A DNA stretch of 60,823 nucleotides, from contig CAMBCF010000010.1 of assembly GCA_945864585.1 (NCBI GenBank), positions 1-60,823 of the forward strand, in the 5' to 3' direction. Shown here piece after piece: positions 23,039 through 40,590 of this stretch (position 1 is the first letter of the stretch; every line of letters starts with the position of its first letter). Source of the stretch: Bordetella parapertussis (GTDB lineage: Bacteria > Pseudomonadota > Gammaproteobacteria > Burkholderiales > SG8-41). Under the pieces are notes generated by a model. That model did not search any database and had not been told where the DNA came from. It saw only the letters and a list, made by a program, of their open reading frames with translations. The translations under genes were made by a program, and so were the position numbers.

Positions 23039-23142
23039 TGGACTATCGTTTGGATCAAAACTCACTGTCGATGCGTGGCATTATAAGGTGAGCCTACTTG
23101 CATCATGTTAAAGTTTCATCCTAAACAAAAGGGTCACACCAC

Positions 23143-24057
23143 ATGTCGAGCTTCAGGCTGCTGAACTACGCGGATGCCGATGGCGCGCCGCGCGCGGGAA
23201 TTTTGGCCGGTGGCAATACGGTGATTGATCTGCGCGATGCACTTCCGAACAATGCATGGTCGCAGTCCACGCTCGCAGTGTTGGGCGCGTGGGATGAAGC
23301 CCTGCCCGCGCTGCACGCGCTCGCCGCTGCGCCGCGCGGCAAGCAACTGCCGCTAGCTTCGGTGCATTTGCTGGCGCCGATTTATTATCCGCCGGCTATT
23401 TATTGCACCGGCGCCAACTACATGGCGCACGCCGAAGAAATGTCCGCTGAGGGCGCGGGCGTGGACAAGGCAACCACGCAGCCGTACCTGTTTCTGAAAT
23501 CCGCACAGCATTGCATGATAGGCCCCGGTGACGCGATCAAGCTGCCGAACACCTCGAAGAAAGTCGATTGGGAAGCCGAATGCGCCGTGGTGATCGGCAA
23601 AAAAGGCCGCAACATCAGCGTGGCCGACGCGATGAAGCATGTCGCCGGCTACACCATCATGAACGACGTGTCCGCGCGCGATCTGTCACGCCGCACCGAC
23701 TGGCCGCGCTGGGGCGTCGATTGGTTCGGCCACAAGAATTTCGAGACCGCGGCACCGATGGGCCCGTGGATCACGCCCGCCGATGAAGTGCCGGATATCT
23801 ACCAGTGCCGGTTGCAACTGTGGGTGAATCAGGAAAAGATGCAGGACACGCTGGTGGATAAACTGATTTTTAATATCGCGGAGCTGATCGAATACCTGAG
23901 CCGCCGCATGACGCTGCTGCCCGGCGACGTAATCGCCACTGGCACGCCGTCGGGTGTAGGCCGCCCACGCGGGATTTTCTTGAAGCCCGGCGACACAGTG
24001 CGCATCGAACTGGATTGCGTGGGCACGCTGGAAAATCCGGTGGTGCAGGGTGTGTGA
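23143..24057 (+). CDS. Fumarylacetoacetate hydrolase (FAH) family protein
   Basis: The 304-residue protein has the N-terminal cap domain seen in many bacterial members and the FAH catalytic core. Core motifs are VDWEAECAVVIGKKGRNI (metal-binding Glu), GYTIMNDVSARDLS and the signature GDVIATGTPSGVG. Members hydrolyse or isomerise acylpyruvates and hydroxymuconate-type dioic acids late in aromatic catabolism. Metal ligands appear complete, so activity is expected. Divergent from a Bug gene, with which it may share a substrate pathway. Confidence 0.92.
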   Translation: MSSFRLLNYADADGAPRAGILAGGNTVIDLRDALPNNAWSQSTLAVLGAWDEALPALHALAAAPRGKQLPLASVHLLAPIYYPPAIYCTGANYMAHAEEMSAEGAGVDKATTQPYLFLKSAQHCMIGPGDAIKLPNTSKKVDWEAECAVVIGKKGRNISVADAMKHVAGYTIMNDVSARDLSRRTDWPRWGVDWFGHKNFETAAPMGPWITPADEVPDIYQCRLQLWVNQEKMQDTLVDKLIFNIAELIEYLSRRMTLLPGDVIATGTPSGVGRPRGIFLKPGDTVRIELDCVGTLENPVVQGV

Positions 24058-24088
24058 TTAAACGAGGCGTAACGTTACCAACGCAAGG

Positions 24089-24218
24089 GTGGGCACGCAC
24101 TTTGTGCCCACACGGTGCGGTGAATTCACGTTCGCCGGCGTGAGCAAAACAAAGTACGTTTTGCCCACCCTACCCAACCATTGGTTTGAGATTTTGTGGG
24201 CACGCTGTTTGTGCCCAC
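24089..24218. repeat. Cluster of GTGGGCAC ... GTGCCCAC hairpins
   Basis: Two hairpins share the arms GTGGGCAC / GTGCCCAC (24089-24111 and 24196-24218), each with a 7-base loop. Between them is a third dyad, GTGAGCAAAAC ... GTTTTGCCCAC (24140-24168). They fill most of the gap 24058-24270 between the FAH-family gene and the DGLPVV pair. No coding region is visible in the gap. Confidence 0.7.
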
Positions 24219-24270
24219 CGTTCAGAGTTTCGCATTTACGCGACGGTATTGCCTGCCACGAATAATTCTC

Positions 24271-25290
24271 ATGGATGAGTTCGAATATTTTCTCGAGAAA
24301 GACTGGTCCGACGGCCTGCCGGTGGTCACGCCGACCGAGGCGCGCGTTGCGCGCATGATCACGGGTACCAAGCGCAATCCAGATGAATTGATCGGCAACA
24401 TTCCTCCGGCAATGGAACCGGTCACGGTGCGCACCGCCGCGATACACGCGCTAATGGCGGGCTGCAAGCCCGAGTATCTGCCGGTGGTGCTGGGTGCGCT
24501 ACCGCTGATGCTGCGCGAAGAATTCAACCTGAACGGCGTGCAGGGCACCATGCACGGCGTAGCACCCTTGATGATCGTCAGCGGGCCGTATGCGCAACAC
24601 ATCGGCATCCACGGCGGCAATGGCTGCTTCGGCCCCGGCTTTCGCGCCAACGCAGCCATAGGCCGCGCCATACGCTTGATGTTGATGAATCTTGGCGGTG
24701 GTATTGCCGGGCTGGCTTCGGCCACCATCTTCGCCACGCCCATGCGCTATACCGCCTGCCTCACCGAAAACATCGAACTCAGCCCGTGGGAATCGCTGGC
24801 GGTATCCAAAGGTTACCAGGCTACGGATAATGTGATCACCTGCGCCATGGTGGAAAGCCCGCGCCTCACCTTCGACGATGTGAGCGATGAACCGCAGCGG
24901 CTGCTCACCGGCATTGCCGATGCCATGACCGCAATGGGTTCATGGAACATGCACGCGCGCTCCGACATGGTGGTGGCAATGGGGCCGCAACACGCGTCGA
25001 TTTGTGCCAGGGCGGGTATGAGCCGCGCCGATGTGCACGCGTGGCTGGTCGCGCGTGCCGGACGCAAGGTGCGCGATCTTACAGGCGGCGGCAACTGGCG
25101 CCCGCAACGTGTGCATGCGCTGGCGCCGTTCATGCAACTCGATCCGGACAATGATGATTGCTTTATTCCGGTGATAAAAGTGGCGGATGATTTGCAGTTG
25201 ATGGTGGCAGGTGGCTGGGGGCCCTGCACGGCAGTGTGTCATGGCTGGAGCGGCGGCAGCAAAGCGGTGCATGGCACTTACACCATTTAG
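24271..25290 (+). CDS. Conserved protein with DGLPVVTPT motif, copy 1
   Basis: The 339-residue soluble protein opens with WSDGLPVVTPTEARVARM (residues 12-29). It continues with LMAGCKPEYLPVVLGAL, FNLNGVQGTMHGVAPLMIV, GGNGCFGPGFRANAAIGRAIR and ENIELSPWESLAV. The set DGLPVV(T/P)PT plus RANAxIGRAxRL is, from memory, the C-terminal module found with UGSC-type selenoproteins; its biochemical function is not known to me. Conserved Cys occur at MAGCKPEY and NGCFGPG. No signal peptide. A close paralog follows 37 bases downstream. Confidence 0.72.
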   Translation: MDEFEYFLEKDWSDGLPVVTPTEARVARMITGTKRNPDELIGNIPPAMEPVTVRTAAIHALMAGCKPEYLPVVLGALPLMLREEFNLNGVQGTMHGVAPLMIVSGPYAQHIGIHGGNGCFGPGFRANAAIGRAIRLMLMNLGGGIAGLASATIFATPMRYTACLTENIELSPWESLAVSKGYQATDNVITCAMVESPRLTFDDVSDEPQRLLTGIADAMTAMGSWNMHARSDMVVAMGPQHASICARAGMSRADVHAWLVARAGRKVRDLTGGGNWRPQRVHALAPFMQLDPDNDDCFIPVIKVADDLQLMVAGGWGPCTAVCHGWSGGSKAVHGTYTI

Positions 25291-25327
25291 AAGAATTAAT
25301 ATAAGACTATGTTTTTATTGACTATTT

Positions 25328-26344
25328 ATGCCTGTTGATGAATTCGAGTTCTTCCTCGAAAAGGAATGGTCCGATGGCCTGCCGGTAGTCACGCCCACGG
25401 ACGCACGCGTCGCGCGCATGCTCGCGGGCACCACGCGCGATGCCGATGAATTGCTCGGCAACATTCCGCCCGCAATGGAACCCGCCACCGTGCGCACCGT
25501 CGCAATACACGCGGTGATGGCGGGCTGTAAACCCGAGTATCTGCCGGTGGTGCTCGGCGGCATCACGCTCATGCTGCGCGAAGCATTCAATCTCAACGGC
25601 GTGCAGGGCACCATGCATGGCGTAGCGCCCTTGATGATCGTCAATGGGCCTTACGCCAAACAAATCGGCATCAACGGCGGCAACGGCTGTTTCGGCCCCG
25701 GCTTTCGCGCCAACGCCACCATCGGCCGCGCGATACGCCTGATGCTGCTCAACCTTGGCAGCGGCATTGCCGGCGTGGCTTCGGCAACGGTGTTCGCCAC
25801 ACCGCTGCGCTACACCGCATGCATTACTGAAAACAGCGAACGCAGTCCATGGGAAACACTCGCGGTCGCGCGTGGCTATGGCGCAGAAGACAACGTAATC
25901 ACCTGCGCGATGGTGGAAAGCCCGCGGCTGTGTTACGACGACGCGAGTCAGGAGCCGGAGCGTTTATTAACCGGGCTCACCGATTCGATGAGTGCGATGT
26001 GCTCGTGGAATCAGCACGTGCGCTCCGACATGGTGGTGGCGATGGGCCCGGAGCATGCGACGATTTGTTCGCGCGCCGGCATGCGCCGCGCCGACGTTCA
26101 CGCTTGGCTGGTCGAACGCGCGGGCCGTAAAGTGCGTGATCTCAAGCGCGGCGGCAACTGGCGGCCGGAACGTGCGCGCGCCCTTGGCATTGATCCGGAA
26201 GATGACGAACGCTTCGTGCCGGTGATCAAGGACGCGTGCGATCTGCATCTCACCGTCGCCGGCGGCTGGGGGCCGCTCACCGCGATCTGCCACGGCTGGG
26301 GCGGCGGCAGCCGCGCGGTGCATAGCGTGTACGGCATAGCATAA
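25328..26344 (+). CDS. Conserved protein with DGLPVVTPT motif, copy 2
   Basis: The 338-residue protein is collinear with the preceding gene over its whole length, with most residues identical, for example WSDGLPVVTPTDARVARM, VMAGCKPEYLPVVLGG, FGPGFRANATIGRAIRLML and ENSERSPWETLAV. It is a tandem duplication product that has diverged but kept the full frame, which argues that both copies function, possibly as a heteromer. The spacer contains no terminator. It converges on the LysR-type gene. Confidence 0.72.
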   Translation: MPVDEFEFFLEKEWSDGLPVVTPTDARVARMLAGTTRDADELLGNIPPAMEPATVRTVAIHAVMAGCKPEYLPVVLGGITLMLREAFNLNGVQGTMHGVAPLMIVNGPYAKQIGINGGNGCFGPGFRANATIGRAIRLMLLNLGSGIAGVASATVFATPLRYTACITENSERSPWETLAVARGYGAEDNVITCAMVESPRLCYDDASQEPERLLTGLTDSMSAMCSWNQHVRSDMVVAMGPEHATICSRAGMRRADVHAWLVERAGRKVRDLKRGGNWRPERARALGIDPEDDERFVPVIKDACDLHLTVAGGWGPLTAICHGWGGGSRAVHSVYGIA

Positions 26345-26369
26345 TGGGGTCGCTTAGCGTAGAAAACTA

Positions 26370-27328
26370 TCAGCGCCCGCTTTTTGCATACACCGCTCGT
26401 TGCTTTGGGTGTGGCGGCAATTTCTCAGCGGCAATTTCTTGTGCCTGTGCTTTCAGAATTTCAATCAACCGCCGGGCGGCAGGAGAGAGATAACCGTCCT
26501 TGCGATAGATGATCGACATGCGGCGCACATGGGTTATTTCCTTCATGGGCAGCTCGACCAGGGGGAACTTGCGCGCTTCCTGGCGCAGAAATTGTTTGGA
26601 GCCGATCCCGAGGTAATCGGAGGACGCGATGGCACGAATCCTCAACGCCTGCGAATTCGTTTCCAGCGCAATGCAGGGCGCCGGTAGACCCTTGTTCGTC
26701 AACGCCCGCAACAACTGTTGCCAGTGTGAACGAAAAGCAGTATTCGCCGACGCCCAGCGCGCGCCGGCAAGATCCGCGAGCGTAATCCGCCTGCGTCCGG
26801 CAAGCGGGCAACTGGCAGACGCAAAGATCACATACTGATCGTCGTACAGATGTTCCTGGACGATATCCGTCGAAGTCGTCGCGCGCGTGCCGGCGACGAA
26901 AAAGTCGATCTCCCCTTTGAGCAGTGTATCCGTGAGAATGTCCCCATGGAGTATGGAAACTTTGAGCGTAATCCTCGAGGCTTCCTGGGACAGTGCTATG
27001 CATGCCTCCATCAGAAAACCTTCCGGCCCGCCAGTGCCAGCGCCGACATGCACAAGGCCGGCGCGGCCCTCGGTCAGGTCCGCTGCTTCGTGCCTCACGT
27101 CGTTCAGCGTCCCCTGCAGCGGTCCGATCCTGGCCAACAGCGCGGCGCCGACTGTGGTGAGGGCTATCCCGTTCGCCGCGCGCTTGACCAGTTTGGCCCC
27201 ACCGACTTTTCCAGCCGGCGCAGGCTCTTGCTGAGCGCCGTCGCACTCAGCCCCAGCGCCTCCGCGGCGTGGGCGATGTTCTGCTTTTCGGCCACTACCG
27301 CGAAATAGCGGATGTCGCGCAACTCCAT
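26370..27328 (-). pseudogene. LysR-type transcriptional regulator with a one-base deletion
   Basis: Reading from ATG at 27328, the winged-helix domain is clear (MELRDIRYFAVVAEKQNIAH, AAEALGLSATALSKSLRRLE). It then goes out of frame at the CCCC run 27197-27200 (GGGG on the coding strand) and meets a stop. Adding one G restores KSVG-AKLVKRAANGIALTT and joins the complete effector domain (RIGPLQGTLNDVRHEAADL to the stop at 26370). The restored protein would be 319 residues, normal for the family. Either the gene is inactive or the base was lost in sequencing a homopolymer. It is divergent from a Bug gene that is itself interrupted. Confidence 0.85.
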
Positions 27329-27342
27329 GTCAGTAACCAGAA

Positions 27343-27358
27343 TTCAGCTCATGCTGAA
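27343..27358. promoter_or_regulatory. Dyad TTCAGC-TCAT-GCTGAA, candidate LysR-type operator
   Basis: A perfect 6-bp inverted repeat with a 4-base centre lies in the 106-base space between the divergent LysR-type gene and the Bug gene, close to the regulator start. LysR proteins bind interrupted dyads at such positions. Binding is inferred from location only. Confidence 0.35.
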
Positions 27359-27434
27359 GGTTGGATCATTGCGGATGTGATTGGGCAGTGTCAAGCTGTT
27401 TGCAGTTTCAATCAGCCCAACACGAGGAGGCGTC

Positions 27435-28415
27435 ATGCATGCCCTTTTCAGAAACGTGTTAGCAGCGGCGGTCGCGGTTGGAATGGTCACAGCAGCGCCG
27501 GGCCTTGCGCAAATGGAACAGAATTACCCGAGCAAGCCGATCCGCCTGGTAGTGTCATTTTCAGCCGGCACCGAGGTCGACATCAATGCCCGCTTGGTGG
27601 CCATGAAACTGAGCGAGAGCTGGGGACAGCCGGTCGTCATTGAAAACCGCACGGGAGGCGGCGGCAGGCTCGGCGCGGCGACTGTCGCCAAGGCTATGCC
27701 TGACGGCTACACACTGCTGTGGACCAGCGTGGCCTTTACCATTTCCGCAGCGCTTTATTCAGACCTGCCGTACGACCCGTACAAGGATTTTGCAGGCGTT
27801 ACCCGCATCGGCATCGGTACCGGCGTATTGGTGGTGTCGCCCGCGCTGGGATTCAAGTCGGTGCATGAATTCATCGCGCACGCCCAGGCGCGGCCCGGGA
27901 AGATTTTCATGGGGTCCGCCGGCGCCGGCAGCAGCACTCACTTGTCCGGGGAACGATTCAGGTTTGGCGCCGGCATCAAGTCGGTACACGTGGGATTCAA
28001 GGGCGTGCCGGAATTCATGATAGAAATCATGGCGGGCCGTATCCATTTTGGGTTCGGGGGCTTGGCGACAGCACTACCTCCCATCAGGGACGGAAAGTTG
28101 CAGGCGCTGGCGGTCACAACGCAGGAGCGCTCACCGCTGCTGCCAGATGTGCCGGCACTGCCGGAGGTGCTGCCCGGCTGGACCAGGGAAGGAGCATCAG
28201 CTCTGCTGGCGCCCGCCGAGACACCGCGTCCCACCCTGAAGAAGATCAGCAAGGAAGTGGGGCGGATACTCGACCTCCCGGATATCAAGTAGCGGATGCT
28301 TGCGATGGGTTTTGTCGCCGATCCCTGCACGCCGGAGGAACACGAGCGCTTCCTGCGCGCCCAGATCGAGAACTTTTCGGGGATGGTCAGGCTGGCCGGT
28401 CTGCGCGCACCGTAA
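27435..28415 (+). pseudogene. Bug-family receptor interrupted by an in-frame amber codon
   Basis: ATG 27435 (GAGGAGG upstream) starts a signal peptide and a normal Bug protein (QNYPSKPIRLVVSFSAGTEV, VIENRTGGGGRLGAATVA, VHVGFKGVPEFMIEIMAG). Translation stops at TAG 28290-28292, after RILDLPDIK. The same frame then continues for 40 codons, RMLAMGFVADPCTPEEHERF to LAGLRAP and TAA at 28413-28415, which is exactly the missing C-terminal end of a Bug protein. A single CAG-to-TAG change explains it. The full frame would be 326 residues, while the truncated product has 285. Confidence 0.85.
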
Positions 28416-28456
28416 TGGGCATCCGGTAACTGTTACGGCGTAACAGTCTCTGAGTC

Positions 28457-28502
28457 CTACACTTTCCGCTTGCGCTCCTGCGCGATGCGGATCGGCGGCA
28501 CC
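28457..28502 (-). pseudogene. Remnant of the 3' end of a ThDP-enzyme gene
   Basis: These 46 bases encode, on the minus strand, VPPIRIAQERKRKV and a stop. They align without gaps to the last 46 bases of the ThDP pseudogene at 29396-29441 (VPPISGARERTRKV, stop), with 40 of 46 bases identical by my count. The two copies are in the same orientation and flank the VapBC-like pair. Confidence 0.65.
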
Positions 28503-28547
28503 TTTATGCTATCATGAATGCCTGCAACAGATAGCAAAGGTAATATC

Positions 28548-28808
28548 ATGGCCAATCTCAGCGTGCGCGGCGTGGCGGAAAAATCTCTGCAACGCATGAA
28601 GCAAACCGCCAAGCGTCAAGGTGTTAGTGTGAACAGTCTGATTACCGACATGCTCAACGCGGAGACCGGCCTTGCGCCAGTAGCGAAACCGTTCGCCATT
28701 CACCATGATCTGGATAAACTGGCCGGCACCTGGAGTGCCTCTGAGGCGCGCGCGTTTGATAAGGCCACAGCTTCGTTCGGGCAAATCGACAAAGGGCTTT
28801 GGCGTTGA
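28548..28808 (+). CDS. FitA/VapB-like ribbon-helix-helix antitoxin
   Basis: The 86-residue protein opens with MANLSVRGVAEKSLQRMKQT and continues AKRQGVSVNSLITDMLN, the Arc-type ribbon-helix-helix fold of FitA-like antitoxins. The tail (DKLAGTWSASEARAFDKATA) would bind the toxin. AAAGG lies before ATG. The stop codon TGA overlaps the TTG start of the PIN-domain toxin, so the two are translationally coupled. Confidence 0.85.
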   Translation: MANLSVRGVAEKSLQRMKQTAKRQGVSVNSLITDMLNAETGLAPVAKPFAIHHDLDKLAGTWSASEARAFDKATASFGQIDKGLWR

Positions 28809-29215
28809 GGCGCATTCTAGTCGACACCAATGCTTACGCCGCCTTCAAGCGCGGCGATGTGCGTACGCTGGACATCTTTCGCCATGCGCCGGAAATCGCG
28901 CTCAATGCCACGGTAATGGGCGAATTGCTAGCGGGTTTTGCCAGCGGCAACTACGCTGCCAGAAACAGGCGTGAACTCGCCGAATTCCTGAGCAGTCCCA
29001 GAGTGCGGCAACTGGTGGTGGACGGCGAAACCGCAGAGCACTACGCCGTGCTGTTTGCCGGGTTGCGCAAGAAAGGCCGCCCGGTTCCCACCAACGATCT
29101 GTGGATAGCCGCCTCGGCCATGCAACATGGCTATGCGGTATTCAGTTTCGATAAACACTTTATCGAAATGGACAACCTTATCGTGGGCAGTGTGCTGGAA
29201 GATTTCCTGCCATAA
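28805..29215 (+). CDS. PIN-domain toxin (VapC/FitB-like ribonuclease)
   Basis: The 136-residue PIN domain keeps the acidic active-site residues: Asp in ILVDTNAYAAF, Glu in VMGELLAGF, Asp in TNDLWIAASAM and the last Asp in FSFDKHF. VapC-type toxins cleave tRNA or rRNA. The start is TTG at 28805 within the overlap with the antitoxin stop; TTG 28799 is an alternative. The pair sits between two copies of a 46-bp ThDP-gene end. Confidence 0.88.
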   Translation: MRRILVDTNAYAAFKRGDVRTLDIFRHAPEIALNATVMGELLAGFASGNYAARNRRELAEFLSSPRVRQLVVDGETAEHYAVLFAGLRKKGRPVPTNDLWIAASAMQHGYAVFSFDKHFIEMDNLIVGSVLEDFLP

Positions 29216-29395
29216 GTTTATCCGATTGGTTGGTGGGAAAACGTCGTCTGTTCCCGATTGTTTCGCTGTATTGCCAGCGGCTGTCCGCGTGGGCACAAAA
29301 AACGTACGCGCCCTTGCTGGATAACAAGGCTTGTACTTTGTTTTCCCTCGCGTCCTTGGCGTCCTTTGCGGTGAATAGCTTTTTCTAGGTTCATC
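29216..29395. other. Gene-free spacer with degenerate repeats
   Basis: No coding region is visible. The stretch has CGTCCTTGGCGTCCTTTGCG-type sequence, which recalls a widespread intergenic repeat, and the small hairpin CTAGG-ttcat-CCTAG at 29385-29398 at the end of the ThDP pseudogene. Confidence 0.5.
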
Positions 29396-30898
29396 CTAGA
29401 CTTTCCGCGTGCGCTCCCGCGCGCCGCTGATCGGCGGCACCCACGGCTGCTCCGCCCACGCCACGCCCACCCGTGCCAACTGCGCGTCTATAAGGTAGGG
29501 CTTGCCGTCGCGCGGCGCGCGCGCGCCAGCGCCGCCTTGAGTTGCTCAGGTGACGACACCACTTCGCCGTCGACGCCGAACCCTTTGGCGATATGCGCCA
29601 TGTTCATGTCCGGCTTGCCGAGGTAGTCGTGAACGAATTGGCCGGTCTGCACCATGCGTCCTCCGGGCACTTTATCGATGACACGGCCGTGCGGGCAACT
29701 GTAGGCGTGATTGTTGTAGACCACGGTGATTACCGGCAATTCGAGCCGCGCCATGTTCCACAGCGCAGTGGGACCGAAGATGAACGAGCCGTCGCCGACC
29801 AGACAGATCACCTGCTGGTTCGGGCGCGCGAGCTTGACCCCCGCCGCAGTGCCGACGCCCGAGCCAAGATGCGCGCCGTAGTAGAAAAAAAGTTCGCGCC
29901 CGCCGAGCGGGTTGAAGCCAAAGCTGTGCGCGCTCACCGAACCCGCCTCATGCACGATGATCGCGTCCTTGTCGGCGAAGTGGGCTATCTCCCAGGTGAG
30001 GCGGTCGGCGAGCATCGGGTTGCGGTTCCAGTCGAGATTTTTCGTGACCAGTGCCCGCATTCCCTTCGCCTGGTCGGTGAAGCGACGCACCTCGTCCGCC
30101 CGCTCCTGCGCCTTTTGCCTGAGTGACGGCGTCATCAGGCCCTCCACGGCCGCAATGAGATCATCCAGCCCGTAGTCGACATCCGCGACCAGCCTCACAT
30201 CGGTGGCCATCACATTGCCCATGCTGCAGCTGTCGATTCTCAATTCGATGAATTTCACGTTGCGCCCGACCATCAGCGCCGGCGACTGGTGCTGGAGCTT
30301 GTTGCCAACGTTGATGACGACGTCAGGCTCTTTCGGATACGCAAGCGAGTTGATTCGCGCCACCGGCAGGTTACCCACCCATAACGGATGTCCGGTCGGC
30401 AAATTCGCGAATATCTGCCGCGCCTGCGCCACCGGCATGCCGAGCAACTCGGCCAGCGCGACCGCCTTGGCCACCGACTTGGTGTGGTAGAGCTCATCGC
30501 CGACGATCAGCAGCGGCAGTTTGGCCTCGACCAGCAGCTTCGCCGCCCGCTGCGGCCATCGCGGCGCCCGGCCCCTCGTGCGGCGTCAGGATGTACTTGA
30601 GCTGCGGCCGTTCGACGGGTGCTTCGTAGAACTGCGCATCCTCGCTCGACGAATTGCCGAAGACGTATTTAACGCCCGAGGCGATTAGCTGCTCGGCCAT
30701 GCACGCGCCACCGCTGCCTTCGAATACCTTGATCCCGCGCGCCGCCGCGCCGCCGGCCTCCTGCGCGTGTGCGACCGGGATCAGCGTGCTCAGGATAGAC
30801 ACGGCGGCGGTGAGCGACACGCCGGTGGAGGTCAGACTCTTCAGGAAGTCACGCCGTGAAATCGAGTGTCTGAGGTAACGCGCGACCAGTTCTCTCAT
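29396..30898 (-). pseudogene. ThDP-dependent enzyme with Tat signal, broken by a deletion and a frameshift
   Basis: ATG 30898 starts a Tat signal (SISRRDFLKSLTSTGVSL, AHAQ) and the first part of a PYR domain (KVFEGSGGACMAEQLIASG, ILTPHEGPGAAMAA). The next codons jump directly to the central domain in another frame (RAAKLLVEAKLPLLIVGDEL), so roughly 130-150 residues are missing near 30565. The PP domain is intact (CLVGDGSFIFGPTALWNM, VVYNNHA). A second frameshift lies in the GC-repeat at about 29515-29530; beyond it the true end is GKPYLIDAQLARVGVAW to VPPISGARERTRKV, stop at 29396. It is non-functional as sequenced. Confidence 0.85.
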
Positions 30899-30923
30899 TT
30901 GTGACTCCACTGCGTGCTTGCGA

Positions 30924-31241
30924 TCATTCAACAGGCTTGCCGTCTTGTGTCGAGTACACCGCGCCGAGGTAACCCGCCATGGCATTGACCTCCTCCTCCG
31001 TCCACAGCGCGCCCCGCTCCGCGATGCGGTAGATCACGCCTTCCCATACCCTGCGGTCCTGGCGATGGTCGCGCCACATGGCGTCGGAATGGCACTGAAA
31101 ACAAAGCTTCAATGTCGTTTCTCTGCCCGGCGCGTCGGGAAACCCGAGCGGCTTCGCCTGCTGCGCCGGCGCTGAGTGGGACGCAAGCATTAGTGCTGCG
31201 CCCAACAGGACGGCCATTACGTTTTTTTGCTGAACGGACAT
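30924..31241 (-). CDS. Small secreted c-type cytochrome
   Basis: The 105-residue protein has a Sec signal (VMAVLLGAALMLASHSAPAQ) and one haem motif CFQCH near residue 47; the likely axial methionine is in VNAMAGYLGAVY near the end. It should be a periplasmic electron carrier of about 8 kDa after processing. GAGAGG precedes ATG. It lies 25 bases upstream of the ThDP pseudogene, suggesting that the intact ancestor of that exported enzyme passed electrons to it. Confidence 0.88.
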   Translation of the reverse strand: MSVQQKNVMAVLLGAALMLASHSAPAQQAKPLGFPDAPGRETTLKLCFQCHSDAMWRDHRQDRRVWEGVIYRIAERGALWTEEEVNAMAGYLGAVYSTQDGKPVE

Positions 31242-31335
31242 CGCCTCTCCCCTGGTAGATCAAGCCTTGTAACAGTCACGCGTATTTGGCAGTGCGTCTA
31301 ACGTAGTGTCTGTCAAATAACTTTACAGCGCGTAG

Positions 31336-31424
31336 GGCGCAATCCCCATTGCGCCGAATGCGGTTTGCAACGTAATCATGCGGCGCAATGGGACAAGGGA
31401 ACACTTGAAGCGAAGCATTGCGCC
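31336..31424. repeat. GGCGCAAT-type palindromes with the 18-bp repeat, copy 2
   Basis: A compact hairpin GGCGCAAT-cccc-ATTGCGCC (31336-31355) is followed by a second dyad, GGCGCAATG (31382-31390) and CATTGCGCC (31416-31424). The loop of the second dyad holds the reverse complement of CAAGTGTTCCCTTGTCCC at 31390-31407. Confidence 0.7.
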
Positions 31425-31439
31425 CTTCGCTGGGCAATT

Positions 31440-32357
31440 CTAGCCGCCCGGCAGTGTCCCCTGCGGCAGACTGTAGCAATAGTCGGCCACATCGGCCGGC
31501 TTGCACTTCCACACGCGATCCATGAATTTATTTGAGAAACAGTGTCTGAGCGCGTTGCGCAGCGGGCGCAGCCGGAACGGCTGGCCGAAGACGAAGGGAT
31601 GGATCGAGATGTTGCACACCAGCGGATGCTGCGCGCTTTGCTCGATCATTTCTTCGAACTGGTCCACCAGCATGTCGCAAAACTCGCGCGCCGTGTGCTG
31701 GCGGTGAATGATCTGCGGCGAATCGTTGAGCTCCACCGGGTACGGCACCAGCAGGAGCGGCCCTGAACGCGTGCGCATCCAGATCGGCTGATCGTCGCAC
31801 GGCCAGTCCATCGAGTAGATGTATCCCGCCTCTTTCAGCAGATCGGGCGTCCATGAATTCTCGTAGGCGCCGGCCCCCATCCAGCCCTTGGGCGGTTTGC
31901 CTTCGTGGCGGACGAAGGTATCGGTCACCTCGCGGATCAGGCGCGCCTCGTCTTCTTCCCAGCGAAAGTCGTGAAGGTTCTCCGAATTGGTGCGGCCGTG
32001 CCCGACGATTTCGTCGCCGCGGCTGCGGATACGCTGCATGATCTGCGGCGCGTTTTCATAGAGCAGGCTGTTGGCATTGTGCGCGAGCGGCATCTGCAAC
32101 TCCTCGGCAAGGTCAAACAGCCGCCAGATGCCGATGCGATTGCCGTAGTCGCGCCACGAATAGTTGCGCTGCGTCTGCGGCTCGCCGTGCTTGGCGTTGT
32201 CGTGGCCGCGCCCTTTGCCGTAGGCGTAGACCTCGACGTTGGTGGTGATGCAAAAAGCCAGCCGCTTGCCGCCGGGCCAGTCGTAATCTTTGCGCTCGGT
32301 CAGCGGAACGTAGTCATAGCGCGTGTGCCGGGGAACCAGTTGCGATGGGGATGGCAT
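31440..32357 (-). CDS. Polysaccharide deacetylase-family (NodB-like) hydrolase
   Basis: The 305-residue protein has the carbohydrate esterase 4 barrel of the allantoinase-like (PuuE) type. Visible are LAFCITTNVEVYAYG near the start, MPLAHNANSLLYENAPQ, EIVGHGRTNSENLHD with the metal-site histidine, KGWMGAGAYENSWTPDLLKE and ISIHPFVFGQP near the end. The usual TFDD is changed to TTNVE, as in several amide-acting members, so an N-acyl or cyclic amide substrate is possible. It lies between a Bug receptor and the cytochrome gene on one strand, probably one operon. Confidence 0.85.
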   Translation of the reverse strand: MPSPSQLVPRHTRYDYVPLTERKDYDWPGGKRLAFCITTNVEVYAYGKGRGHDNAKHGEPQTQRNYSWRDYGNRIGIWRLFDLAEELQMPLAHNANSLLYENAPQIMQRIRSRGDEIVGHGRTNSENLHDFRWEEDEARLIREVTDTFVRHEGKPPKGWMGAGAYENSWTPDLLKEAGYIYSMDWPCDDQPIWMRTRSGPLLLVPYPVELNDSPQIIHRQHTAREFCDMLVDQFEEMIEQSAQHPLVCNISIHPFVFGQPFRLRPLRNALRHCFSNKFMDRVWKCKPADVADYCYSLPQGTLPGG

Positions 32358-32378
32358 GAGCGGCCTTTCAACCTAGGT

Positions 32379-33353
32379 TCAATCAATGCGTGCAGCGGAA
32401 AGCTGCACCAGCTTGCCCAGCTTGACCATTTCCGACTGGATATGCGCGGCAAACTCTTCCGGCGTGTTGGTGACCGGCAGCGCGCCGACCTTGCTGTAGA
32501 TATTCTGCACTTCGGGCGAGCGCACGGCCTTGCCGAACTCCGCGTTGAGCTTGTCGACGACGGCACGCGGCACACCGCGCGGCGCGAGAATGCCGCTGTA
32601 GAGCACGAGTTCGAAATCTTTCAGCCCCGACTCTTTCATCGTCGGCACGTGCGGCGCGGCGCCAGTGCGCTGCGGCGTGGTGACGCCCAGCGCACGCAGC
32701 TTGCCCGCCGCCACCATCGGCATCGCCGGCGGCATAGTAGAAAACAGCATTCCAATCTCGCCGCCCAGCAGTCCGGTGATCGCCTGCGGGCTGCCCTTGT
32801 ACGGCACGTGTACCATGCGGATATCCGCCATCGTTTTCAGCATCTCGCCGGCGAGATGCACGATCGTGCCGTTACCCGATGAGCCGAAGGAAATGTCGTT
32901 GGGACGCTTTCTGGCCAGCGCCGTGAGTTCCTTCACCGATGTCGCCGGTAGCGAAGGATGCACCACCAGTATCAGCGGCGTGGCGGCAATCAGCGTGACC
33001 GGGGTGAAATCGCGCACCGAGTCATACGGCAGCCGCCGATAGAGGCTGGCGTTGATCGCATGCGTGGTGATGTCCTGCAGGAACAAGGTGTAGCCGTCCG
33101 CAGGCGACTTGGCGATCTGCTCCGAGGCGATGGTCGTGCCTGCGCCGGGACGCGGATCAACCACCACCTGCTGGCCGAGGTTCGCCGTGAGCCGGGCGCC
33201 AATCGAGCGCGCCAGCACGTCAGATATGCCGCCCGCCGTAAACCCATGCGCCAGACGCACGGTCTTGGCGGGATAGTCTGATTGAGCCACAGCGTACGGC
33301 GTGAGCAGCGCGAGGCCGCCAATGACGGTCGTCGCGACACAGGCTATGCGCAA
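32379..33353 (-). CDS. Bug-family periplasmic solute receptor
   Basis: The 324-residue receptor has signal peptide VIGGLALLTPYAVAQ, then DYPAKTVRLAHGFTAGGISD, DPRPGAGTTIASEQIA, RLPYDSVRDFTPVTL and VHVPYKGSPQAITGLLGG. The first loop (HGFTAGG) departs from the usual PFPPGG. The start codon appears to be TTG at 33353; no better start is seen. It is the first gene of the operon with the deacetylase-like enzyme and cytochrome and probably binds that pathway's substrate. Confidence 0.92.
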   Translation of the reverse strand: MRIACVATTVIGGLALLTPYAVAQSDYPAKTVRLAHGFTAGGISDVLARSIGARLTANLGQQVVVDPRPGAGTTIASEQIAKSPADGYTLFLQDITTHAINASLYRRLPYDSVRDFTPVTLIAATPLILVVHPSLPATSVKELTALARKRPNDISFGSSGNGTIVHLAGEMLKTMADIRMVHVPYKGSPQAITGLLGGEIGMLFSTMPPAMPMVAAGKLRALGVTTPQRTGAAPHVPTMKESGLKDFELVLYSGILAPRGVPRAVVDKLNAEFGKAVRSPEVQNIYSKVGALPVTNTPEEFAAHIQSEMVKLGKLVQLSAARID

Positions 33354-33503
33354 CCCGTGCGCGACCTGCGGAGGAAATAAATGGGAAATTGAAACGCCCC
33401 TTTTTGTTGCACGGAACTATATCGCCGCACCGGCATGCGGTCAAACACGCGCGCGCCTTCCGCCGACGTTGTTATGCAGGATGTTGCTCGTGGGCACGCT
33501 ACG

Positions 33504-33552
33504 CCCTTCGACAAGCTCAGAGCCTGCCCCGGACTCGATCCGGGGACAGGCT
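33504..33552. repeat. CTTCGACAAGCTCAG repeat with palindrome
   Basis: CCTTCGACAAGCTCAG is followed by the dyad AGCCTGCCCCGGA ... TCCGGGGACAGGCT (33521-33552). The same core occurs inverted and inside a coding region at 53937-53968. The remaining gap 33354-33656 shows no gene. Confidence 0.7.
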
Positions 33553-33656
33553 TTGTCCGCGCTACGCCTTGCTGCCTACCCCGGAATGCCCGCCTTTCTG
33601 GCAGCGGGCAGAACGACTGGCTCGTAAAGCCTGCGGTAAGCTTGTGGAGACAAAGG

Positions 33657-35129
33657 TCACGGTAGTTCAATAAGATCACTGATCTTGAAGTTGAGCGCAA
33701 TACGCAGTAAGGTCTCTACTGCAAGCCGCGCTGCAGCATCGTCCCCCTTCTGTGCATACGCTGCGGCAAGAGAAGCATGAGTGCGAGGAAGCTTTGGATT
33801 TGACGACCGCGCTTTGAGTAACCATTCGAGCGCCAGATCGCTACGCCATTGCAGGAAATACGCACTGCCCATATGAGATTGCTGAAGGCTAATTGTAGGA
33901 CCCAAGAGATCGCGACGCATCGCTTGTTCGATCCACGGAATGGCCTTCTCTGGTTCTCCGAGACGAATCAGGGCAGTTCCTACATTGGCGTGTGCATGCG
34001 CTAAGTTGCGATCAAGCGCAATAGCGGCCTCAAACGATCGAGCACTTTCGGCAAGATTACCGAGTGCCCGGTAGAGTAATCCTTCGGCGAGATGTGCGCG
34101 GGCGCTGTTTGGATCGAGGGCAAGGACCTTTTCAACTGCCTTGCGGCCTTCTCTTAGTTTCTCGTCCTTTTCTTATGCTAATAAAGCGCTGCCGAAATTA
34201 GTCCGCTGCAACAAGATCGCTCGCCCAAGTCGCGCCCACGCGTCGCTGTTGTTGGGGTCGAGCGCCAACGCTTTGCGAAACAGCACTTCTTGTTCAAGCA
34301 AGCCCTCCAAGGTGCGAGGTTTGTCTGCTAAAGCGATCCCGCGGATCAGGAAGTCGGTCGCCTGAGGATTGGTCTTGCGCTTTTCTGCGTCCGTCGCGGC
34401 GATCACATTAATTTCGCGCCCGATGGAATTCGCAATGCGCGCAGTGATCTGATCTTGCAGTGCAAATACGTCCGCCTCTCCACCATCGAAACGATCCGAC
34501 CAGAGTTGCGCTCCACTCACCGCCTCGCCTAACTGGGCATTCACCCGCAACCGGTCACTACCTCTTTGCACACTGCCTTGAAGTACATAGCGAACCCCAA
34601 GATCCCGGCCGAGCTGCCGTATGTCCATTATTTTTCCGGCCAAGGTCGCGGTGGTTGCGGAGGCAATAACGAATAGGCCTGATATACGAGACAAATCCGT
34701 GATGAGGCTTGCTGTCAACCCTTCCGGAAAGTAGGCCTGTTTCGGGTCATTGCCGATGTTGTCGAAGGGAAGTACGGCGATCGATTGCTTATCAGACAGA
34801 GTGAGCTACTCAACGGCGACAGGCCGCGATTCGATCAGGGCACTCGATGTTGTCGCAGGAACTTCGAGTTTCAAACGCCGCCGATTGCGCAGCACCACGT
34901 CGGCTACGATCATCAACACTCCGAGGCAAACGACAATCAAGCGATAGTCGATGCCTGATGGAAACGCCTGACGCCAACTGGCGGGAATTGCGTGCAGAAG
35001 ATGCGCCACCCAGTGGTCCGGGGCGAAGCCCGTCGTCGTAACTATGACGCCGGCGACGGCCCAATGGGTGACGTATTCCCGAAAGGTCGTGCGTAGATGG
35101 TGGATAGGCTTCGGTTGGCTTTCGGTCAT
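33657..35129 (-). pseudogene. TolB/FlgO-like plus TPR protein with two in-frame stops
   Basis: One frame from ATG 35129 to the stop at 33657 encodes two membrane helices (HWAVAGVIVTTTGF; YRLIVVCLGVLMIVADVVL), then the segment SIAVLPFDNIGNDP with LITDLSRISGLFVIAS and YVLQGSVQRGSDRLRVNAQL, then TPR repeats (AHANVGTALIRLGEPEKAIP, ASLAAAYAQKGDDAAARLAV). This is the layout of CadC / adenylate-cyclase-associated TPR proteins. The frame is broken by TAG at 34806-34808, just before the VLPF domain, and TAA at 34173-34175 between the VLPF domain and the TPRs. No winged-helix or cyclase domain is left upstream. Confidence 0.8.
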
Positions 35130-35296
35130 GTGGCGTGCGTTGGTTTTCTGCGGCGGAGCGGAACAACAATTAGCCAGCCCGAACGGGCAAAAGTATCGTC
35201 GGCGGCAGCGACTCTGTCAAATATCAGCCGATCTGTCGGCGAGTGCGATTGGCGGATTACTTTGCTGGACGCTGGGCAAGTGGTCACAGAATTCCT

Positions 35297-35325
35297 TTGA
35301 CTAAATATATTAGTCTTGGTATAAT
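35297..35325 (+). promoter_or_regulatory. Sigma-70 promoter overlapping a 17-bp palindromic operator
   Basis: TTGACT (35297-35302) and TATAAT (35320-35325) are separated by exactly 17 bases. The palindrome GACTAA-ATATA-TTAGTC (35299-35315) covers the -35 box and most of the spacer, so a bound repressor would block RNA polymerase. It lies 54 bases before the start assigned to the toxin gene. The XRE-type antitoxin encoded second in the operon is the obvious candidate repressor. Confidence 0.72.
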
Positions 35326-35378
35326 TTTACATTGCATATCTTCCGCCGAGCCTGTCCCGTGAAAAGCCCCTCCACTGG

Positions 35379-35711
35379 GTGGCCTCGGCGAAAAAGGACT
35401 ATCTGAGCTTCCCGGCCGAGGTGCAGGACGAGATGGGCTATGCACTCGGCTTGGCGCAGTTAGGTGCCAGGCATCCGAACGCCAAACCCTGGAAAGGTGA
35501 AGGACCGGGTGAGCTGGAGATCATCGAGGACCGCCGCGGCGATACCTACCGCGCGGTCTATACGGTGAGGTTTACCGAAGTGGTGTACGTGCTGCACGCC
35601 TTTCAGAGGAAATCGAAGCGCGGCATCAAGACACCCCAGACAGACGTAAAGTTGATCACGGAGCGCCTGAAACGCGCCCAAGCCGATAACGAACGCAGAG
35701 GGACGCCATGA
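35379..35711 (+). CDS. RelE/ParE-superfamily toxin (phage Gp49-like)
   Basis: The 110-residue protein matches the Gp49-like (PF05973) toxin family: SAKKDYLSFPAEVQDEMGYA, KPWKGEGPGELEIIEDRRGD, TYRAVYTVRFTEVVYVLHAF and KSKRGIKTPQTDVKLI. Relatives usually begin with EKPLHW; here that sequence is encoded in frame just upstream (REKPLHWV, 35361-35381) but has no ATG, GTG or TTG start, only a CTG at 35352. Translation therefore starts at GTG 35379 or at the rare CTG. Predicted mRNA interferase controlled by the palindromic promoter. Confidence 0.85.
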   Translation: MASAKKDYLSFPAEVQDEMGYALGLAQLGARHPNAKPWKGEGPGELEIIEDRRGDTYRAVYTVRFTEVVYVLHAFQRKSKRGIKTPQTDVKLITERLKRAQADNERRGTP

Positions 35712-36031
35712 CCACGATTACCCGAGGCACCACCAACGTCTTTGCTGACTTGGGCTATGCCGATGCCGCCGAACGGCAAATCAAGACTCGCCTGGCACTC
35801 GCGGTCAATGAACTACTCAAAGCACGCAAGCTGAAACAACGCGAAATTGCCATCCTGCTGGGCGTCCCGCAACCCAAGGTCTCGGCCCTGAAAAACTATC
35901 GGCTCGACCAATTTTCCGTTGAACGTCTGATGGAATTCCTCACTGCGCTCAATCAAGACGTGGAAATCATGATACGGCCGCGCGCCAATACCAGCGGGGC
36001 CGGGCATATTTCGGTACTGGCATTGCAGTAG
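35708..36031 (+). CDS. XRE-family antitoxin (HigA-like, HTH_37 type)
   Basis: The 107-residue protein has a helix-turn-helix at about residues 41-65 (LKQREIAILLGVPQPKVSAL) followed by FSVERLMEFLTALNQDVEIM, the standard pattern of antitoxins paired with Gp49-like toxins. ATG overlaps the toxin stop (ATGA). It should repress the promoter at 35297-35325 and neutralise the toxin. Confidence 0.88.
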   Translation: MTTITRGTTNVFADLGYADAAERQIKTRLALAVNELLKARKLKQREIAILLGVPQPKVSALKNYRLDQFSVERLMEFLTALNQDVEIMIRPRANTSGAGHISVLALQ

Positions 36032-36143
36032 CCTTTGGAAAACGAATTCGCAATCAGAAGACCGGAAGCACTCATGGCTCGTTTCTGCAAACCGTCTTCC
36101 ACCTGCGATCGTTCGATTACAGGAGATATTCAGGACCAACACC

Positions 36144-36674
36144 ATGACTGAAGAACTCGGCTTCATCGACCCCACTGCCGGCAGCGGCCGCAAGCGCGTG
36201 CCACAGGCACCCCGCACCGCCGATCTCGCGGGCAAAGTGGTGGGCCTGCTCGATAACACCAAGGAACAGGGTAGTCTGATTCTTGAAACCATCGGCACGA
36301 AGCTGCGTGAGCAATACGGCGTCGCGCGCGTGGTCACGCGGCGCAAGGAGCATTATTCCAAGCCGGCCACCGATGCACTGATAGACGAAATGGCAAAGGA
36401 GGTTGATGTCGCCATCGCGGCCCTGGGCGGGTGAGGCTCTTGCACGTTGTGCAGTGTGCACGACGCCATCGAATTCGAAAAACGTGGCATCCCGGCCGCA
36501 GTGATTATCACGCAGGCGTTTCGCAATGCCGCAGTGTTTCAGTTCAGGAGCAAAGGCATGGAAGGCCACGCTTACGTCGAAATGCCGCACCCGGTTAGTA
36601 ATCTTTCGCCGGGCGAAATGCGTGCGCTGACACTGACGTTCGTGGATGACGTCGCGCGCCAGTTGAAAGAATAG
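36144..36674 (+). CDS. UGSC-family selenoprotein (in-frame TGA = selenocysteine)
   Basis: ATG 36144 (CAGGA eight bases upstream) opens MTEELGFIDPTAGSGRKR, then AGKVVGLLDNTKEQGSLILE and EVDVAIAALGG. The next codon is TGA (36432-36434), and the same frame continues GSCTLCSVHDAIEFEKRGIP to VDDVARQLKE, stop at 36672-36674. The motif at the TGA is therefore U-G-S-C, exactly the signature for which the UGSC (seleno)protein family is named, with Sec at residue 97 of 176. Codon use and similarity are normal on both sides. A redox or thiol-chemistry role is inferred from Sec plus the nearby Cys pair (GSCTLC). No selA, selB or selC is in the window. Confidence 0.8.
36432..36460 (+). promoter_or_regulatory. 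Possible SECIS-like hairpin after the Sec codon
   Basis: Bacterial SECIS elements sit directly after the UGA. Here TGCAC (36441-36445) can pair with GTGCA either at 36449-36453 (loop GTT) or at 36456-36460 (10-base loop). Both are short, so folding with the flanking bases is needed to judge them. Confidence 0.3.
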
Positions 36675-36821
36675 CGCGGCCATGCCTCCGCAATGCTCTG
36701 CGAATTGCTGGTGCGCACCTAGCAGGCACAGGCCGCGCAGTCGCCATCGCAGCAACTGGGTTAACATGCGGCTTGATCGTGTTGCGCCCCCTAACCGAAC
36801 CCCACGAACGGAGTAATCAAA

Positions 36822-37580
36822 ATGACCACCCACAACAAAGTTGCCGTCATCACCGGCGGCGGCACCGGCATCGGCAAGGCCACCGCACTCGCCTTCACCA
36901 AGGACGGTTATCGCGTCGCCATCAGCGGCCGGCGCCCCGAACCCCTCGACGAAACCATCAAAGAAGCGGGTATGGATAGCTCGCGCATGATCGGCGTGCC
37001 TACCGATGTGGGAGACCCCGCCGCCGTGAAAGCCTTGTTTGCCAAAACCATGACGGCGTTCGGCCGCGTTGACGTGCTGTTCAACAACGCCGGCACCAAC
37101 GCGCCCGGCGTGCTGTTTGAAGATCTGCCCTGGGAAAAATGGAAAGCCGTGGTGGATGCCAATCTCAACGGCATGTTTTTGTGCTCGCAGGAAGCCTACA
37201 AGATCATGAAGGATCAGACGCCGCGCGGCGGCCGCATCATCAACAACGGCTCCATCTCCGCCCACATCCCGCGCCCGGATTCCGCACCCTACACCTCGAC
37301 CAAGCACGCTGTGTCCGGGCTGACGCGCACCATCGCGCTCGACGGACGCAAGTACGACATTGCCTGCTGCCAGGTGGATGTGGGCAACGCCATGTCGTCG
37401 CTCGCGTCACGCATGGCCAAGGGCGTGAAGCAGGCCAACGGCACCGTCGCGCCCGAACCGATGATCACCTGCGATGACGTGGCGCGTTCGGTGCTGTTCA
37501 TGGCCAGCCAGCCGCCGGAAGTGAACATCTACCACCTGATGGTGATGGCTACCAAGATGCCTTACGCAGGACGGGGTTAG
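36822..37580 (+). CDS. SDR-family oxidoreductase
   Basis: The 252-residue protein is a fully canonical SDR with [27 protein letters not shown], the catalytic Ser in [12 protein letters not shown] and the YxxxK pair in [15 protein letters not shown]. The arginine in ISGRRPEP suggests NADP preference. It follows the UGSC gene after 147 bases with no obvious terminator. The stop codon lies inside a strong hairpin (37564-37588). Confidence 0.92.
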
Positions 37581-37588
37581 TCCTGCGT
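37564..37588 (+). terminator. Hairpin at the end of the SDR gene
   Basis: ACGCAGGAC and GTCCTGCGT form a perfect 9-bp stem with a 7-base loop across the stop codon. No U-tract follows, so it could slow RNA decay or need Rho to end transcription. Confidence 0.4.
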
Positions 37589-37599
37589 CGTCGAGAACT

Positions 37600-37679
37600 G
37601 TAGCGTGCGCTGTGCGCGCGATGAACCACACGGCGCGCACCAGCTTGCTGCTGTTGATCGTGCGCACAGCGCACGCTAC
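37600..37679. repeat. Perfect 18-bp inverted repeat
   Basis: GTAGCGTGCGCTGTGCGC (37600-37617) is exactly inverted at 37662-37679, with a 44-base centre. It lies between converging genes and belongs to the class of intergenic palindromes seen elsewhere in the window. Confidence 0.8.
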
Positions 37680-37736
37680 CGAGTACGGCGAGGCTCACGG
37701 TAAACGGCGTGAACGGGCTAATCGCACCACCTTGCG

Positions 37737-38498
37737 CTACGGCTTGGTTCCGCCTGACGCTGTTTTCGACTGTGGGATATTGAAAGCATCCCTATCCAGA
37801 CCCACAGGTATAAACACGCCCTGCAGGTCTTTCATCACCAGACCCGCCAGCCCCAGGTGACGGTCAAAATCTGCGACGGGCGCGAACAAATTCATGCGTA
37901 TCGCCATGCGCGGATTTTCGGGATGCTGGCGGAACAGAATTACCGATGAATACGGGTCTTCCTCGCCCTCGTAAATATTGGATTCGCGCATACCGAAAGT
38001 GCCATTGGCGAGCCGGATCAGGCGCGCCTGATAACGCGGGTCTTTCTTGGCGCGCGCGGCAGCCGTCAGACGCGCGTGTTTCCATACTTCTTCACGCGTC
38101 TCGTCCCAGGATTCAAAGCTTTCCAGCGGCATGGCGTTAATCACGATGCCGATATTGCCCGCCGGCGTGAATAGCCGCGTGCGTCTGCCATCGTCGAAAC
38201 CGCGCCACCCCATCGGCACCGGCACCAGCAGGCGCGAGGAGGGCGCCAGCGCAAATACATAACCCTCCAATACCTGCCGCACACCCACCGGGAAGCCGAA
38301 TCCCTTTTCGAGCAACCCTTTGTTTTCCGGGCTATCCGGCGAAAAACTTGAGCTGTCCTGGGCCAGCGCAAACGCCGAATAGGTCGCGCTGGGCAAGGTG
38401 GTTTCAAGCAACAGGAACTGCGTCTGTGCGCGCGCCGGTCCCGCCATCAGCAGCACCGCCACCAGCAACCCTCGTAACAAATTTCGCTGCGCTCGCAT
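37737..38498 (-). CDS. Secreted hypothetical protein
   Basis: The 253-residue protein has a clear Sec signal (LLRGLLVAVLLMAGPARAQ) and a soluble mature part with no recognised domain. Visible features are PMGWRGFDDGRRTRLFTPAG, INAMPLESFESWDETREEVW and SNIYEGEEDPYSSVILF. The end (DFDRHLGLAGLVMKDLQGVF) looks helical. GGAGACGCT precedes ATG 38498. Probably a periplasmic protein. It is divergent from the PanE-like gene. Confidence 0.72.
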   Translation of the reverse strand: MRAQRNLLRGLLVAVLLMAGPARAQTQFLLLETTLPSATYSAFALAQDSSSFSPDSPENKGLLEKGFGFPVGVRQVLEGYVFALAPSSRLLVPVPMGWRGFDDGRRTRLFTPAGNIGIVINAMPLESFESWDETREEVWKHARLTAAARAKKDPRYQARLIRLANGTFGMRESNIYEGEEDPYSSVILFRQHPENPRMAIRMNLFAPVADFDRHLGLAGLVMKDLQGVFIPVGLDRDAFNIPQSKTASGGTKP

Positions 38499-39606: not shown

Positions 39607-40590
39607 TTACTGCGCCTTGATACCCGCCGCCTTGACAATTTTCCCGGCCGCCTCGCTATCGACCAGCAGAAACGCGTCAAATGCCTCCGGCTTCATCAGC
39701 AGCGTCTCCGCGCCCAGCATGCGATAGCGCTCGCGCAACTCCACTGTGCCCAGCGCTTTTTGCAATTCCGCGTTTAGCTTTGCGATCGCGGCGCGCGGTG
39801 TCTTGCGCGGCGCGAGCAGCCCCACCCAGAACTGGTACTCGGCGTCAGGCACGCCGGCTTCGGTGGTCGTCGGCAACTCCGGCAATAGCGTCATCCTGCG
39901 TTTTGAGCTGACCGCAAGCGCCTTCAGCCTGCCGTCTTTCACCAGCGGCACGGCCGCTGCCGCCGGCGAAAAGAACCAATCCAGCCGCCCCGCCGCGACT
40001 TCGATCAACCCTTCCGCGGTGCCTTTGAACGGCACGTGCGTCGCCGTTATCGCTGCTGCCAACATCAATTTTTCCGAGCTCATGTGCGTGCCGCTGCCGA
40101 CACCGCCTGATCCGAAATTAAGCGCGCGCGGTTTATTTCTGGCCACCGCAATCATATCCTTGAGCGACGCCCAGCCGCGCTGCGGTGGAACCACCAGCAG
40201 GTTGGGCAATTCCGCGAGTGTGGCAACGCCGGAAAAATCGCGAATCGGATCAAAGCCCAGATTGCTGTAGAGCCACGGCATGCCCGACTGCGCCGAAGCG
40301 GTTAGCAGCAGCGAATGCCCGTCGGGCTCGCTGCTCGCGGCCGCACCCGCCGCGATTGTGCCTCCCGCGCCGGGACGATTTTCCACCGCGATCTGCACGC
40401 CGATCTGCCGTGTCAGAACTTCGGCAGCGGCGCGTCCGATGATGTCGCTCGGACTGCCTGCGGTGGCTATGCCGATAAAGCGGATCGGCCGCGCGGCGTA
40501 GGGCTGGGCGTTAGCGGGCGGGATCGAACATAGCAACACCGTAGCCGCTGCCAGCGTGGTTCGTAAAATGATTGGGGTGGTGGTTTTCAT
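39607..40590 (-). CDS. Bug-family periplasmic solute receptor
   Basis: The 327-residue receptor has signal peptide LAAATVLLCSIPPANAQ, then PYAARPIRFIGIATAGSPSD, ENRPGAGGTIAAGAAA, LNFGSGGVGSGTHMSSEKLM and THVPFKGTAEGLIEVAAG. The first loop reads ATAGSPSD and not PPGGxxD, an unusual variant of the ligand contact region. It is 7 bases downstream of the MetE-like gene and is the last gene of a five-gene minus-strand operon. Confidence 0.92.
   Translation of the reverse strand: MKTTTPIILRTTLAAATVLLCSIPPANAQPYAARPIRFIGIATAGSPSDIIGRAAAEVLTRQIGVQIAVENRPGAGGTIAAGAAASSEPDGHSLLLTASAQSGMPWLYSNLGFDPIRDFSGVATLAELPNLLVVPPQRGWASLKDMIAVARNKPRALNFGSGGVGSGTHMSSEKLMLAAAITATHVPFKGTAEGLIEVAAGRLDWFFSPAAAAVPLVKDGRLKALAVSSKRRMTLLPELPTTTEAGVPDAEYQFWVGLLAPRKTPRAAIAKLNAELQKALGTVELRERYRMLGAETLLMKPEAFDAFLLVDSEAAGKIVKAAGIKAQ

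Follow-up and report, generated by a model that had tools for sequence, protein, structure and literature searches.

UGSC-family selenoprotein genes, their near-constant partner and their multiplication in an uncultured Burkholderiales lineage

Introduction

Selenoprotein catalogues have carried UGSC since 2008 as abundant but functionally unassigned. Its fusion to a conserved domain, 'Unknown_1', was described that year by the Global Ocean Sampling study, which considered the protein likely to be thioredoxin-like (PMC2398784). When upwards of 5,200 sequenced organisms were surveyed, 33 UGSC genes were listed, spread over 26 of them (PMC5029168). The two largest whole selenoproteomes on record have 57 and 63 genes (PMC13188914), the 63-gene genome being a Methylomirabilota assembly attributed there to Deng 2026. 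The family is modelled by Pfam PF24696 and NCBIfam NF041046. Further afield, the GrdB protein of glycine, sarcosine and betaine reductase and its D-proline counterpart PrdB also enter into the comparison below.

Here we analyse a window, by which we mean the whole 60,823-nt stretch of contig CAMBCF010000010.1 (forward strand) from the Bordetella parapertussis assembly GCA_945864585.1, in which an initial annotation had pointed to a UGSC gene read through an in-frame TGA. Like the family as modelled, the locus scores above both cut-offs and has the UGSC motif with predicted selenocysteine (Sec) at U and a SECIS element directly downstream. By itself the window gene merely adds one member to an established family. 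What merits attention is the multiplication of that family and its near-constant partner, neither of which was visible to the initial annotation. Coordinates of the features are collected in Table 1.

Table 1. Positions of the UGSC gene, its recoding elements and the partner genes in the window
Feature	Position	Strand	Basis and remarks
UGSC-family selenoprotein gene, 176 aa (predicted)	36144..36674	+	Frame and profile matches; Sec is residue 97; stop codon TAG
In-frame TGA, predicted Sec codon (U of UGSC)	36432..36434	+	TGA in 36/36 relatives and 18/18 host copies
Cys100 codon, UxxC motif, putative resolving Cys	36441..36443	+	At least 90% conserved among 24 UGSC proteins
Predicted bacterial SECIS hairpin, stem CGTTGTGC / GCACGACG, loop AGTGT	36445..36465	+	Synonymous identity, compensatory pairs, 51-site fold test
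WSDGLP partner, copy 1	24271..25290	+	Profile match from ATG 24271; ORF listed from GTG 24196; beside UGSC in most orthologous loci
WSDGLP partner, copy 2	25328..26344	+	Profile match; in most orthologous loci the gene just before UGSC

The selenocysteine codon and its SECIS element

Translation of 36144-36674 on the forward strand meets a single internal stop, the TGA at 36432-36434, and with that codon read as U the product runs ...AALGG-U-GSCTLCSVHD..., just as the initial annotation had described two same-phase frames split by one TGA. The downstream ORF is listed from a TTG start at 36447, yet the frame is open directly from 36435, and we agree that a standard gene caller would report two short ORFs instead of one gene. 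Family membership is likewise confirmed: the read-through product scores 174 bits against PF24696 (cut-off 25) and 142.8 bits against NF041046 (UGSC_fam; cut-off 125), each half alone passes PF24696 (74.5 and 80 bits), and the motif U/C-G-S-C, with Sec supplied by the in-frame TGA, is present at 36432-36443. The Cys100 position is occupied by Ser in one host copy (UGSS).

For comparison we used 36 relatives of the window gene from named assemblies, mostly uncultured Burkholderiales/Betaproteobacteria with two Chloroflexota, 37-91% identical to it. TGA stands at the Sec codon in every one, and the plain-Cys homologs that would have spoken against the reading do not occur among them. As all 18 UGSC copies of the host genome also have TGA at this codon, its presence in the window gene is not due to chance, and the earlier argument that a random nonsense mutation is improbable holds.

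Codons +4 to +10 form the hairpin GTTGTGC-AGTGT-GCACGAC, which begins 13 nt downstream of the UGA and places GU at +22/+23 counted from the U of UGA. Counted from the UGA, its loop is as far downstream as that of E. coli fdhF. Folding of the single sequence is weak, the energy of the window gene by itself being unremarkable (z about -0.5), so the case for a SECIS was built on comparison. Among 31 close orthologues, synonymous identity is 0.98 in codons +4 to +10 and 0.53 (sd 0.16) outside them, and no 7-codon stretch elsewhere exceeds 0.76. The sole variant among them (locus L066) combines TTG>TTA with CAC>CAT, changing both partners of one base pair, and in a Chloroflexi gene (L093) the stem sequence is changed and the pairing kept. 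Across 51 Sec sites from the paralogues of the host and its relatives, the 36 nt after TGA fold more stably than synonymous recodings (mean z -1.40 versus -0.27 in 403 control windows, p 3e-10, a value that is indicative because the sites are related), and GU falls at +21 to +23 in 46 of the 51. At least three host copies, C104_11982 (the UGSS form), C184_210 and C31, gave no clear hairpin in this test, and an Rfam search of 23000-38000 returned no match. Judged by these comparisons, the window hairpin is a bacterial SECIS under selection; the fold check suggested at the outset thus succeeds across relatives and stays weak for the window sequence alone.

The host genome (5.0 Mb, scored 100% complete) holds all four of the selA, selB, selC and selD genes that had been proposed for checking. 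Profile searches recovered selA at 586 bits and selB at 448 bits, on one contig and within 5 kb together with tRNA-Sec (74.5 bits), while selD (426 bits; C41:18416-19339, locus L057) contains one internal TGA, and the host selenophosphate synthetase is therefore probably a selenoprotein itself. A GrdB/PrdB-like gene at C5:45471-45683 and upstream (L127), with an in-frame TGA in SPVUPNYTC, is likely a further selenoprotein of the same superfamily. With TGA in all relatives and a constrained hairpin behind it, the placing of Sec at the U of GG-U-GSCTLC is borne out, and we take it as close to certain on comparative grounds that the TGA encodes selenocysteine and that the frame is one Sec-encoding gene.

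Multiplication of UGSC in the host and its relatives

A whole-genome profile search placed 18 UGSC matches over the Pfam cut-off in the host, each with exactly one TGA in the same motif column (variants UGSC, UGTC, UGAC, USTC and UGSS). A few copies look damaged: in C54 and C184_2933 the partner portion has shifted frame, and C104_1191 is short of about 86 partner positions. Two or more UGSC places were found in 36 of 36 genomes of the host's taxonomic family (range 2 to 58). In an evenly drawn sample of 298 other Pseudomonadota genomes, only 3 have any at all. Among four relatives searched in full, the richest (5.7 Mb, 98% complete, 2% contamination) has 58 places, about 51 of which, as counted from the search table, contain one TGA and no other stop. 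With 18 genes in the host and as many as 58 places in one of its relatives, the lineage stands apart from the family as surveyed (PMC5029168).

In a UGSC tree the host copies fall into several deep clades alongside orthologues from other genera, with weak support at the deep forks, and on the strength of this spread the expansion is old. A UGSC gene with a motif Cys was also observed (L118, genome G333), in which a TGA follows about 24 codons later and the N-terminal part is broken; it is probably a decayed gene and not a Sec form.

The WSDGLP partner protein

All-against-all comparison of neighbouring genes revealed a family of about 340 aa that is joined to UGSC genes either as a C-terminal extension or as a neighbouring gene. 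It is marked by the motif WSDGLPxVPPT and a near-invariant MAGCxPEY. Cys67, considered as a potential cleavage Cys of a GrdE/PrdA-type pyruvoyl protein, is near-invariant too, with Ala or Gly in its place in two fused proteins. In the loci examined, 86 of 95 UGSC places have the partner either fused (21) or adjacent on the same strand (65); it lies further off at 7 and is absent from the stretch examined at 2. Most orthologous loci have one or two partner genes directly upstream of UGSC. In the window the partner pair is 9.8 kb upstream of the UGSC gene, and in a near relative (L059) 6.5 kb, so a segment has come in between. Host partner matches away from any UGSC amount to one intact gene and two remnants (C40 and C29). 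The intact gene is at C17:19676-20683 (L121), and the 16 kb examined there contains no UGSC.

Searches of Pfam, NCBIfam and PDB sequences found no relative of the partner, the pyruvoyl families of GrdE/PrdA type included, and it had no match in the GrdB-like set. No credible match came from PDB sequence searches with the two profiles, UGSC and partner; a complex II match at 0.003, confined to a short segment, was discounted. The 'Unknown_1' domain of the 2008 study is probably the WSDGLP domain, and some of the fusions seen here are probably of the kind described there, in that UGSC is fused with an extra conserved domain (PMC2398784). The WSDGLP partner differs from that description in accompanying nearly every UGSC gene, mostly as a neighbouring gene of its own, and in occurring in Chloroflexota too.

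Other genes were noted in the window. Two short overlapping genes of HigB/HigA toxin-antitoxin appearance (35379-36031, forward strand) directly precede the UGSC gene, within the segment that divides it from its partner genes. A ThDP-dependent acetolactate-synthase-like enzyme (29488-30985, reverse strand) has a Tat-like signal, SRRDFLK, and is split by an apparent frameshift near 30490; a CxxCH cytochrome-like ORF (30924-31241) overlaps its upstream part. TctC/Bug solute-binding proteins are encoded at, for example, 18186-19166, 32379-33353 and 39607-40590. The 5-Mb host genome has at least 150 such genes (150 of 568 candidates listed), and a functional tie between these receptors and UGSC was set aside, as adjacency at this abundance is background.

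Fold and kinship to GrdB and PrdB

The structure model of UGSC (pLDDT 93.3) alternates strands and helices, with Sec97 just before helix 98-113, and its PDB matches are of a general Rossmann-like kind (SDR, receiver and flavodoxin-like), with no thioredoxin among the matches listed. The domain is thus predicted to be a Rossmann-like alpha/beta fold with Sec at the start of the helix after the third strand. A fold search with the fused UGSC-partner model returned no match at E <= 0.001, and its rows span mainly the UGSC part.

Profiles point to a more specific relationship. The glycine reductase selenoprotein B profile TIGR01917 matches 15 of 24 UGSC proteins across Sec (best 4.9e-6) and the PrdB profile TIGR04483 matches 8 of 24 (best 9.5e-5), while hhalign of UGSC against three GrdB-like proteins gives a probability of 86 and an E of 4.9e-6 with the Sec columns aligned. 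The spacing from Sec to the GIP motif is the same as in the GrdB-like host selenoprotein L127. Unlike GrdB and PrdB, UGSC is a short stand-alone domain that falls far below their cut-offs (window protein versus TIGR01917, 16.6 bits, cut-off 602.2; another host copy versus TIGR04483, 14.1 bits, cut-off 300), and its partner, unlike the components of those systems, matches neither known Grd/Prd models nor the GrdB-like set. From these alignments UGSC appears remotely akin to the Sec domain of glycine/sarcosine/D-proline reductase selenoprotein B without being a member. The 'redox role' of the initial annotation was too generic and is better put as this kinship.

Discussion

We consider it rather probable that UGSC and WSDGLP are the Sec subunit and the partner of a GrdB-related, probably thioredoxin-fed reductase whose paralogues differ in substrate. 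Comparison with relatives, rather than chemistry, shows that the UGA at 36432 is decoded as Sec by SelA, SelB and tRNA-Sec with the downstream hairpin. Gene linkage suggests an enzyme of two parts, with UGSC as its Sec subunit and the WSDGLP protein as the other; the latter is encoded here at 24271-26344, and in other loci it shares an operon or a polypeptide with UGSC. UGSC may contribute a catalytic selenolate for attack on, and reductive cleavage of, a substrate bond, with the partner binding substrate or cofactor; oxidised Sec might then be resolved by Cys100 and thereafter by thioredoxin. The link to thioredoxin comes from two loci, both in other genomes: in one (L119, genome G201) a Cys-form UGSC adjoins a partner with an N-terminal thioredoxin-like domain (CETC; a weak match, E 0.001), and in the other (L120) a thioredoxin-reductase-like gene precedes UGSC. 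The 18 host paralogues could differ in substrate. Their neighbours include UbiD, acyl-CoA dehydrogenase, CoA ligase, amidohydrolase, amidase, GMC oxidoreductase and mandelate-racemase family genes, a variety that would suit substrate-specialised copies.

It is also conceivable, if unlikely, that UGSC is a general thiol-disulfide redox or antioxidant protein of thioredoxin-like type to which the partner is an accessory. The UxxC motif, the thioredoxin-linked genes at two loci and the suggestion made in the Global Ocean Sampling paper (PMC2398784) all fit such a protein, but the alternating beta/alpha, Rossmann-like model (pLDDT 93), its SDR, receiver and flavodoxin-like PDB matches and the sequence kinship to GrdB and PrdB speak against it, and a near-constant partner of about 340 aa together with 18-58 diverged copies better suits a substrate enzyme. 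We find it harder still to credit that the pair reduces or detoxifies selenium, sulfur or metal species instead of an organic catabolite; such a role would go with the Sec, the two conserved Cys and a partner fused to a thioredoxin-like domain, but the host neighbours are assorted catabolic genes and a single detoxifier would have no need of 18 diverged copies.

Two readings that dispense with selenocysteine have negligible probability. An ordinary pseudogene or an assembly error, with the TGA a nonsense mutation, would explain the two short ORFs of a standard caller, but was rejected: every one of the 36 relatives has the TGA, the sequence to either side of it is constrained as coding, the hairpin is frozen and the Sec machinery is complete. 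Genome-wide sense recoding of UGA has nothing for it except the in-frame TGA itself, and was rejected because many host genes, several UGSC paralogues included, terminate on TGA and because Sec-specific tRNA, SelA, SelB and hairpins are all present.

The broader form of our proposal, that UGSC and WSDGLP make up an undescribed two-part Sec enzyme class, related to GrdB and PrdB, multiplied into dozens of substrate-specific versions in one uncultured Burkholderiales lineage and forming most of a very large selenoproteome, is put forward tentatively, and we hold it slightly more doubtful than probable. UGSC genes get split or truncated by standard gene calling. With a near-constant partner, a likely connection with Sec-dependent amino-acid reductases and a lineage carrying 18 to about 50 copies, the family gains a biochemical identity that can be tested. 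A large Sec proteome can arise from one multiplied enzyme family, and if the proposal is true, one such family would account for most of a very large selenoproteome.
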